Positions 33,401-64,000 of a DNA stretch of 64,000 bases are shown in pieces. The notes beneath the pieces are model-generated. The model worked only from the letters and a program-made list of their open reading frames with translations. It was not told where the DNA came from and did not search any database. The translations under genes were made by a program, and so were the position numbers. Origin of the DNA: Dysidea avara (Eukaryota; Porifera; Demospongiae; Dictyoceratida; Dysideidae); NCBI RefSeq assembly GCF_963678975.1, contig NC_089285.1, positions 12,640,019 through 12,704,018 of the forward strand, in the 5' to 3' direction. Positions within the stretch are counted from its first letter, which is position 1, and each line of letters opens with the position of its first letter.

Positions 33401-36400
33401 TTATTGCCTTGGATTTGCAGTAAAGCTTCAACCAGGTAAGCTTAAGCTTGTGGTGGGATCAACACAGTGGTTGTGTTGCAGTCCATGATTAGCAATTAAT
33501 GATGTATTTTGTATCCATAGTTTTTCAAAAGCAAATGTGTAATAAGGAGTCTGCAGAGATGGGCTCGCATTCTTGATAGATAGCTTGCATATAGTATAGG
33601 GTCAGTCCGACCTTATACCCAGGCATTTCTGAAAGCTAACTACACCCATGGGCATATCCATTGATATTCTTCATATTAATAGCATTTCTTCCACCCCTGG
33701 ATGTTCAACATTCCTCTCAAAGGCACACACTTCCTTCCTGTCTTACTGTAATGTATGTCCTTCCAACTTTTAGTCCATTGCAACACTGTTATGTGATATA
33801 AGTTTCTTTCATTAGCAGTGTACACAAATATTTAGCTTTGCTCTCTAGTATAGCATCTTTTGGTTTTGTGTGGTGATGGTTTTTTACCCTTGAAGGCTTG
33901 AGAATCACTTCCATTTAGCACCCGTCTTGGTACCTGTAGCTTTACACGCTTAATAAACAAGTACACTACATGTGCTATATGTACATTTATTTTTTGCAGG
34001 TTGAGTCCTGAACAACAGAAAGGTATTCACTATATAAAGTAATTTAAAATGATGTGATATTAAAGTCTCTATTATACACTACCAGAACTGATGGAAGCTA
34101 AATGTGCGAAGGTATTTGATCACTGCCTGATGACCATTGACAATGCTGGTTAGTAATGATTGAGATGACTCGTAGTTTATATTGTGTGCTCTTCAGCTAG
34201 ATATGTTAATGATGGATCACGATTTGTTTCTATGAAGGTGGCAAGCATAGTTGACGGCAAACTTTTAGTAGGTTTTGTAATGTCATATTTTTATAGTCTC
34301 TATATGTATATATCTGCAGGGTTCTTTTTCTTATGATTAACGGAATAGAAATTATAGTTCAACCATACTATTTCACATGCTCCGCTATCATCACATGTTA
34401 CTGCTTAAATTTTTGTCTTTTCAGCATCCAATTCATGTAGTACACATACTTTGTACATGTGATAGAAATAGGAGACTACTAATTATTACAATAATAAATT
34501 AATATTCCTATGTAGTATATAGAGCTGTATGAGATAGTTGCTTTACAATTTTAATGTCACATTTGCTATCCACAGAGACGTCTCACTACACTACTGAACT
34601 ATTCTGATGAAGTGTTCAAATCATACTCCACTACCTCAACATCTAATGGTATCCCCAACATCTCATCTTCTAACATGGTAACTTCTCCCCTTGTGTACAC
34701 ACAGGAATGTTTCCCAGGTTTAGAGTAGTGGTGGCTACAAGAGACAGTGCTGAGTCAACAAATGTAGGATGAAATGTGTTGGGCCGTAAGAGTGGTGAAT
34801 CTATAGTTATATTTGAATGCTGCAACTGTGGGCTCATTCATCTCAGTATTTTGAAAACAATCCAAATCACACATTAGAAGTTTCAAGATAAATGGTTTTA
34901 AAGAATTCAACTTGCCAAGTATAGCAAGCATGCGTATGAAATTTACACAAGAGATGCATCGAATTTTTACCTTTCAGACTAATTCCAGTACTTGTAGCTG
35001 CTTGTAGAGTTTCGGACAAGCGAATTAGTATCACAAGTGCTTACAAAGGGGTGGGAGTTGGTAGGGGTGGAAAGAGACAGACTTCAAAATGGAGGCAAAC
35101 TGCAGTTGGGGTTCAGACATGAAATACAGGGCTGTTCTGGCTTCTTAGTGGCTGATATGCAGCAAAATCAATACAGAAAATATATGGCCAACCTTATCAG
35201 GCCATCCACCAGTACACCACTGATTATTGCCCAGCCAGGTTCTTCACAAGGCCAGAAACCACCATTCAAACTCACTACACCACCCAGAATAGATGTCTTG
35301 TAAAACCAGCTTCAAGTAGTTTTAGTAGTACTGAGGGTCAAAACTAGTAGTACGATAGTGTAGCTATCCACTGGTTGTGTTAGTTTTGATTTTGCCTGAT
35401 GTGCACTTTGGATTGGTTCTGGTCTCGTATCACCAAGAGTTCATAATATTTGTATGGGGGGCATACTAATATTATGAACTATTGGTATCACTTATCTCCA
35501 TTGTCTCGATCACCAGTCATTCAAGTCACAAGTGTTGCGTGAAACTTTGACAGAACTTAGTACAAAAGGGTTAGTAATCACAGCAACCTATTTTGTAGTT
35601 ACTTATGAAAATATCTTGTTTGTTATCCACAGTTATATTGATCTTGTTGACTGGAGGAATCATTTCAGTGCAGAAAATGTGGATCAGCTTCATTTGTTAT
35701 TAAAAGAGGTATTTCTTCTTGATGACTGGCTCTAAGCCCATGTTGCTAATTATCCAGACATTACCTGGAGTAGAAAGACCAGCTCCTCTTTCCCACCAAG
35801 AGCACCAACAAGTGAAGGTCCTTTTAAAAAGATTGAGTGATATGGGAGAAGTAAGGAGTTATGGTATCTATATAGCAAAAACATTGTACCAATTTCTTTG
35901 CATTCTTTTATGGTTTTACCAGTGTGCCTTCGGCGCTTATAAGCTCCTGGTTTTACTCTTATCAGCACATTTGTAATTAAAACAAATAAGCAATTACATA
36001 ATATTCTGTACTGTGCATGCAACCATATGCCATACTTAGAGAGCAGCAACAAAGAATGTCAGAGTATTGGTGGATGCAGAACAGACCTACTACCAACCAG
36101 CCATTAGTAGTCTCACTGTACATTATCTAATGAAGAATTTCAATAAGGAACAACCAACCATTTATGATACAGTCCAGAGTTATCTTAAGGTGTGTGTGTG
36201 TTTGTGCATGCGTGTGCATAGGTGTATGTGGCAAGCAGTACCATAAGTTGGAAAATAAAATGTTTCACTGGCTGCACCATCTTCAGAAATGAACCAATCT
36301 GCATGATGGCATACAATATGTACATGTATCTGTGTTGAGAGTTGTGTACTTTACTTTATATCCCAAAGTGAAAAATGTTTTACTGGAGATGCAACATACA

Positions 36401-63000: not shown

Positions 63001-64000
63001 TTGACCTTGTTGACTGGCAGAACCATTTCACTGTGGCCAACCTGGATCAGCTCCAGCTACTGCTGGATGAAGTAGGTCTAGCCTCTTGTGTAACTGATGT
63101 GAACTTGTCCATAATCCAGGCACTACCTGGAGTGAAGAGACCTGATCCTCTAACTGACCAGGAGCAACAACAAGTGGAGCTTATCATGAAAAGATTAAAT
63201 GACATCGGAGAGGTAAGAAAGCAGGCTCTTATGGGAAGGAAGGAGAGTCAAACAGGCCATTTGTTGGAAATGTTTTTTTTACACTAGCCTTTAGTTCCAT
63301 CAAACTTGGATAAATATTATCTCCAGATTCAATCTCATGATGGTAATTCCCTATGGTATGTCCCCCAGACTGACACCCAGATCAACAACCCCTCCCCCTC
63401 AGTATAGGACAACTACTCTAAATTCTGGGAAATACTCACACGTGTGCATTTGTAGTGTGTGTATGTGTGCACATAACAATTGATATGTGTATATCAAGTG
63501 CGTAGTTGCATTGTTTAAGTTGTGGTGTTTTGTCCAGCACGCAGTCGCAAAAGATGTCAGGGTGCTGATGGACGCTGAGCAGACCTACTACCAGCCGGCC
63601 ATCAGGAGCTTCATGGTACACTGTATGATGAAGTGGTATAACAAGGAGAAGCCAGTAGTGTATGATACTTTACAGAGCTACCTTAAGGTGACTGTTATCA
63701 GTATCATGTATGTATGTGAAAATTGCACTTGCAATAGTTCATGATGCGTTGTGGTTTGGGTGGTGTGGCAATGTGTTCATATCTCTGGTGTCTCACTGTA
63801 GAGTTCACACCAGACAATGTTGTTAAGTCACTTGAGCACTAAGAGGAATAATTGTATCTATGCAGTGAAGTTGGTGAGGGGAGCATATATGGATGAGGAG
63901 AAGAGGCTGGCCATAGAGCATGGATGTGAAGGTGTGTGGTGTGATTGTGTGTTTGTGTGTGCATGTGTGTGTGCACGCACAAGGCAGCATAGCCAAGGGG
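60014..64000 (+). CDS. PRODH: Proline dehydrogenase, tandem copy 3 (exons 1-11, runs off window)
   Basis: Eleven exons in the same phases as the other copies: 60014-60256, 60360-60550, 60966-60988, 61042-61104, 61170-61240, 61296-61409, 62285-62346, 62996-63071, 63120-63212, 63538-63687 and 63802-63931. The ATG at 60014 starts MNRILGRTILASSPTLLQQQ, presequence-like. VLMDAEQTYYQPA and VKLVRGAYMDEEKRLA are present. The exons that should encode the SHNSE block and the Arg-Arg substrate site lie past 64000, so catalytic completeness cannot be judged. Introns are short and nearly free of transposons, unlike copies 1 and 2. Exon 3 is VMSLEERR-like in place of LSPEQQK. Exon 11 is almost identical to copies 1 and 2. 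Confidence 0.92.

Follow-up and report, generated by a model that had tools for sequence, protein, structure and literature searches.

Exon-sized tracts of near-identity among three tandem proline dehydrogenase genes of Dysidea avara are consistent with interlocus gene conversion

The stretch of Dysidea avara DNA analysed here, 64,000 nucleotides of contig C14 (hereafter the window), carries three tandem proline dehydrogenase (PRODH) genes, all on the + strand (Table 1). The reading frame is open through exons 5-14 in copies 1 and 2, and through exons 5-11 in copy 3; these exons of copy 3 match the Pro_dh profile (PF01619) with an E value of 2.2e-19, and its exon 14 match is located downstream of the window end. 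Each of the three copies retains the seven introns between exons 4 and 11. An exon 3, implied by the codon phases, was not located in the copies. Comparisons involving copy 3 cover exons 1, 2, 4-11 and 14, and for exon 4 the edges used in copies 1 and 3 are 9 bases away from those placed by eye (34086 and 61042).

Table 1. PRODH genes and tracts of exonic similarity in the window (coordinates are window positions).
Feature	Position	Strand	Remarks
PRODH copy 1	30440..41290	+	ATG to stop; exons with splice sites; Pro_dh PF01619, E 3.9e-50
PRODH copy 2	43828..59572	+	ATG to stop; exons with splice sites; Pro_dh PF01619, E 4.6e-55
PRODH copy 3	60014..64000, continues beyond window end	+	exons 1, 2, 4-11 inside window
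Exon 6 tract, copy 1	34576..34647	+	first 72 bases; 72/72 with copy 3, 70/72 with copy 2
Exon 6 tract, copy 2	51615..51686	+	70/72 with copy 1 and with copy 3
Exon 6 tract, copy 3	61296..61367	+	72/72 with copy 1
Exons 7 and 8 with the intron between, copy 1	35517..35708	+	partly similar to copy 2
Exon 9, copy 1	35758..35850	+	whole exon homogenised with copy 2, 92/93; copy 3 only 68/93
Exon 9, copy 2	52745..52837	+	92/93 with copy 1; tract begins at exon edge
Exon 10, copy 1	36040..36189	+	whole exon homogenised with copy 2, 147/150; copy 3 only 104/150
Exon 10, copy 2	53030..53179	+	147/150 with copy 1
Exon 11 tract, copy 1	38533..38643	+	first 111 bases; 109/111 with copies 2 and 3
Exon 11 tract, copy 2	53246..53356	+	first 111 bases; 111/111 with copy 3
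Exon 11 tract, copy 3	63802..63912	+	first 111 bases; 111/111 with copy 2

Silent divergence (pS, Nei-Gojobori) was obtained with the copies aligned exon by exon, a check proposed in the first-pass annotation of this DNA, and it is strongly non-uniform in all three pairs. Between copies 1 and 2, pS is high at exons 1, 2, 4 and 5 (0.77, 0.54, 1.0 and 0.52) and again at exons 8, 12, 13 and 14 (0.73, 0.68, 0.77 and 0.66), intermediate at exon 7 (0.28), and low at exons 6, 9, 10 and 11 (0.13, 0.05, 0.07 and 0.04). The strong divergence noted earlier for exons 1, 4, 5 and 14 is borne out by these values. When copy 3 is compared with copies 1 and 2, low pS is found only at exon 6 (0.08 and 0.09) and exon 11 (0.04 and 0.06), and pS amounts to 0.57-0.81 at exons 9 and 10. 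Sharing is thus mosaic: copies 1 and 2 have exons 6, 9, 10 and 11 in common, each of them shares just exons 6 and 11 with copy 3, and exon 14 is diverged in all three pairs. Codons for the same amino acid tell the same story for copies 1 and 2, which agree at 29/30 of them in exon 9, 46/48 in exon 10 and 37/37 in exon 11, as against 8/18 in exon 8 and 15/28 in exon 12. When columns were permuted 20,000 times, no replicate attained the observed longest run of silent identity or the observed spread among exons, whichever of the three pairs was considered (p 5e-5).

The tracts measure 72, 93, 111 and 150 bp. Most of what the first-pass annotation had noticed was recovered, namely one difference per 93 bases in exon 9 and about three per 150 in exon 10 of copies 1 and 2, an opening of more than 60 shared bases in exon 6 with silent sites included (pS 0.08-0.13 over the three pairs), and exon edges at both ends of the region concerned (34576 and 63931). 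Near-identity of exon 11 in all three copies was found for its first 111 coding bases but not for its final 18, where 14-15/18 match. Similarly, tracts were said to stop at exon edges, which describes exons 9 and 10, homogenised as a whole, but not exons 6 and 11, where the tracts stop within the exon; in exon 6, in-frame indels between the copies come immediately after the 72-base tract (34648-34677, 51687-51707 and 61368-61409). Copies 1 and 2 have different bases at the last position of exon 8, so the exon 9 tract of this pair starts at the exon edge, with 77 identical bases following the mismatch. In pair 1/3, exon 5 closes on a mismatch and is followed by 73 identical bases from exon 6 on, and in pair 2/3 the 112 identical bases at exon 11 are preceded by just 6 matching bases at the close of exon 10, an exon in which these two copies agree at only 105/150 positions beside the perfectly matching tract. 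Exon 8 of pair 1/2 is itself uneven (20/21 over the first 21 coding bases, 38/54 over the remainder), and the partial similarity of copies 1 and 2 in exons 7-8 perhaps corresponds to older tracts.

The introns do not follow the exons. With 6 and 15 bases trimmed at the ends, and introns 1-2, 2-4, 11-12 and 13-14 left out, intron interiors lack residual similarity, 22/22 comparisons lying within the shuffle null. A test of the flanks, made of 55 exon-side comparisons (exons 1 and 4 left out), showed that the flanks of exons 9-11 in pair 1/2 match no better than the flanks of mismatched exons. The exception is exon 6 of the same pair, where the introns agree at 12/12 positions upstream and at 19/26 downstream; the upstream flank scores 0.018 and the downstream one scores above all 90 mismatched pairs. 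Other scores of 0.018-0.028 were obtained upstream of exon 13 (pair 1/2), upstream of exon 6 (1/3), downstream of exon 11 (1/3), in GT-rich sequence, and upstream of exon 7 (2/3), one or two such low scores being expected among 55 tests. Hence the earlier description of the introns as unrelated, save for a few bases at the exon 6 borders, is upheld, and flanks do not align as the exons do apart from exon 6 of pair 1/2. Since the 26 bases downstream of that exon match at 19 positions, they are either older than the exon tract or constrained. The shared intron bases on both sides of exon 6 in copies 1 and 2 hint at an unspliced template.

Near-identical exons would arise without repeated conversion if the whole genes had been duplicated recently and their introns and other exons subsequently replaced. 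This scenario, however, calls for many replacements with breakpoints at exon edges, from unknown donors, and the DNA search of the genome found no other PRODH copy. A tandem array of cytochrome P450 genes elsewhere in this genome, on contig C13 (14152479-14329493, loci L020-L039), serves as a control; six copies (g1-g6) out of at least nine were taken from it. The two young P450 pairs (pS 0-0.11) align beyond the exons into the introns, over 1,555 bp at 90.8% for g2/g3 and over 723 bp at 84.8% plus 621 bp at 90.5% for g4/g5. As young pairs keep alignable introns, a recent whole-gene duplication would leave visible intron similarity, in agreement with what the first-pass annotation had argued, and we regard a recent origin of the PRODH copies as extremely improbable.

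Freezing of silent sites by selection at the nucleotide level, through splicing signals, RNA structure or an antisense gene, has also to be weighed. A constraint shared by the three copies is formally possible at exons 6 and 11, which are near-identical in all of them. On the other hand, silent sites of copy 3 are free to vary at exons 9 and 10, the two positions at which copy 1 departs from the others within the exon 11 tract both alter the protein, and exon 6 lies outside the Pro_dh match. In copy 2, no antisense frame is open through the tested stretches of exons 6, 10 and 11; two of three antisense frames are open in exon 9, which is taken as chance in 93 bases. Fold energies of copy 2 compared with synonymous resampling gave z values of -0.29 to +2.57, none markedly more stable. 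Selection of this kind thus appears quite improbable. Selection, whether on the protein or on the nucleotide sequence, is rejected for exons 9-10, where copy 3 differs widely at silent sites, and less securely for exons 6 and 11. An assembly or polishing artefact, by which the exon of one paralogue was pasted into the others, is judged here from the assembled sequence. In it, the exon copies differ by scattered bases and by in-frame indels, their frames are open, and reads from exons about 70% alike, as are exons 9-10 of copy 3, would hardly be expected to cross-map. Such an artefact is very improbable, even more so than nucleotide-level selection.

The picture that emerges is one of exon-sized islands (pS of about 0.04-0.13), shown here within otherwise diverged genes and best read as segments of recent common descent. 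Old tandem duplicates of PRODH have probably passed short DNA segments to one another through interlocus gene conversion of the non-reciprocal kind, the process put forward in the first-pass annotation and well supported by per-exon pS, permutations and codon-level tracts. Silent divergence changes segment by segment with abrupt low tracts, tract lengths are usual ones, and sharing among the pairs is mosaic. According to the mechanism proposed, intron homology would have been lost early through substitutions, indels and insertions, so that the introns turned into barriers. Conversion would then have lasted only where exons stayed alike, that is, in the central domain (exons 6-11) for copies 1 and 2, whereas copy 3 would have taken part at exons 6 and 11. 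An exon edge would then be the place where homology runs out rather than a signal for the machinery: where flanking introns have no detectable homology, any homology-dependent conversion must halt at exon edges. The template would most likely be the neighbouring genomic copy. It should, however, be noted that exon 9, with unrelated introns on either side, leaves no more than 93 bp on which homologous pairing could rely, and that a number of independent conversions, each limited to a single exon and all similar in age, are required.

The first-pass annotation also raised the possibility of a spliced RNA or cDNA template. In this reading, spliced mRNA or its cDNA would be copied into the genomic exons, the introns of the target being looped out and retained. 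Exons 9-11 of copies 1 and 2 adjoin in the mRNA, where they make up 373 bases, and they are of like age (1/30, 2/48 and 0/37 silent columns differ), whereas the introns that separate them are unrelated; a spliced template would moreover provide longer homology than a 93-bp exon. As regards junctions, the converted block of pair 1/2 is contiguous over exons 9-11 and starts exactly at the 8/9 junction, and the pairs that include copy 3 have single-exon tracts. Templating by RNA or cDNA predicts a 3' bias. Yet copies 1 and 2 show no conversion in exons 12-14, those nearest the 3' end, and exon 14 shows none with respect to copy 3 either. In copy 3, exons 6 and 11 are converted but the exons between them, 7-10, are not. 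Within exons 6 and 11 the tracts stop short of the exon end, and the intron bases shared around exon 6 by copies 1 and 2 also speak against a spliced template. For double-strand break repair templated by RNA or cDNA, the signature described is the deletion of whole introns (PMC12686478, excerpt). A spliced template would carry exons only, as the PRODH tracts do, but this deletion is not seen in PRODH, none of the seven introns between exons 4 and 11 being lost in any copy.

Retrocopies and additional PRODH genes were looked for in the assembly to which the window belongs (550.8 Mb in 108 contigs). When exons 9-11 of copy 2 were joined and used as the query, the 8 matches proved to be single exons of the three genes, so that neither a retrocopy nor a fourth copy was found in this way. 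Exon 6 of copy 1 gave 3 matches, one per gene. With the joined exons 12-14 of copy 1, 5 matches were obtained, all single exons and none spliced (three in copy 1, exon 14 in copy 2 and part of exon 14 in copy 3); since copy 2 was not matched at exons 12 and 13, where similarity is about 70%, more diverged copies would escape searches of this kind. A Pfam profile search of the genome is weak evidence, its 3 matches all being exons of copy 2, with copies 1 and 3 missed. The absence of a retrocopy in these DNA searches weighs against an RNA template only weakly, since a converting cDNA need not insert and strongly diverged copies would be missed. As diverged introns explain why tracts stop at exon edges, a spliced template is not needed, and with introns kept, exons 12-14 unconverted and no retrocopy found, neither is it favoured; on balance we consider it unlikely. 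Demonstration of an RNA template would be a major result, which the present evidence does not favour.

The P450 array is informative beyond its young pairs. The pS values of the three exons differ by no more than 1.7-fold in 11/13 non-young pairs; the remaining two, g2/g6 and g3/g6, have a last exon with about half the pS of the other exons. Within this last exon, codons 45-72 match at 76-82/84 positions in the 13 non-young pairs, compared with 98-111/132 before and 16-23/33 after them. About 80 bases are at least 90% identical among the six copies, silent sites mostly included, and the exon is diverged on both sides, so that the tract ends mid-exon at either end. A genome search with this tract found it only on C13, at 93-100% in seven copies and at 84-87% in two. 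For the opening portion of the last exon, these copies stand at 82-86%, except the query g3 and its sister g2. Among copies beyond the six, five have the tract at 93-98% against 82-84% for the first part of the exon, and two (14394788 and 14413706) show no jump of identity at the tract. Longest-run tests, uncorrected, gave p values of 0.001 (g3/g6), 0.0028 (g2/g6), 0.0126 (g2/g3) and 0.048 (g1/g6), the remaining 11/15 pairs being above 0.05, and are clear in only 2/15. At least 28 short repeat pairs at 88% identity or more occur in the C13 array, P450 exons among them. The control cuts both ways. Its mosaic suggests that such short tracts within exons also occur outside PRODH, with modest longest-run support and with selection on the protein a possible contributor. 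A bolder proposal is that germ-line spliced RNA or cDNA overwrites genomic exons in place, the introns being kept, and that the three PRODH genes and the P450 array bear two traces of a process frequent in this genome. If true, germ-line transcript templates would keep exon identity between paralogues independent of introns; the proposal is, if anything, slightly less likely than a spliced template at the PRODH locus itself.

Conversion between neighbouring genomic copies, the preferred reading for PRODH, is a known and ordinary mechanism, of which the locus is a clear new example, displayed unusually clearly. The closest parallel is found in the GOT1Sd and GOT1Sr genes of the copepod Tigriopus californicus, where conversion is mostly restricted to exons, the intron is too divergent to align, and intron divergence, as its authors suggest, can end conversion there (PMC3728101, excerpt). 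The PRODH tracts likewise lie largely in exons, between introns without residual similarity. The two cases differ in that GOT1 comprises two copies, with little divergence in the sequenced coding regions, whereas the three PRODH copies are alike in some exons only, beside exons with high silent divergence. In paralogues of Caenorhabditis, tracts are mostly 50-200 nt long, a range which includes the 72-150 bp of PRODH, and conversion is usually exonic, introns diverging faster; 15% of detected events were reported to reach introns there (PMC3966223, excerpt), while in PRODH clear sharing of intron bases is confined to exon 6 in copies 1 and 2. Duplicates may also escape from conversion, leaving the conversion regime and then diverging independently, as PRODH duplicates likewise do, although the opsin example described in that work is the opposite of PRODH, with introns homogenised and one exon diverged (PMC3924837, excerpt). 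In mosquito vitellogenins, conversion takes in introns (PMC2875236), and in zebrafish NLR genes it acts differently on different domains (PMC4852459). With regard to the minimum homology for ectopic conversion, exons that measure as little as 93 bp and have unrelated introns around them appear to have kept exchanging sequence beside exons highly diverged at silent sites. Given such conversion, gene trees built on whole coding sequences can mislead.

Repeats were also scanned in the window and some downstream sequence (at least 85% identity over at least 60 bp), which gave 18 pairs, 7 of them PRODH exons. An inverted pair (28290-29053 and 39344-40129), 93.8% identical over 788 bp and with one arm within intron 11-12 of copy 1, is probably a mobile element. 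Two separate introns of copy 1 contain a repeat of about 550 bp, in pieces 73-91% identical (32597-33178 and 34854-35386). A reverse transcriptase fragment lies on the minus strand at 26005-26853 (PF00078, under the curated cut-off), and a relative of it, 25-41% similar, is found in an intron of copy 2, also on the minus strand (46430-47131). Finally, a dispersed short repeat with the core TACTCTAATAGAGCAGT occurs in both orientations near the PRODH genes, at 43149, 47187, 50096, 56173 and 59083.
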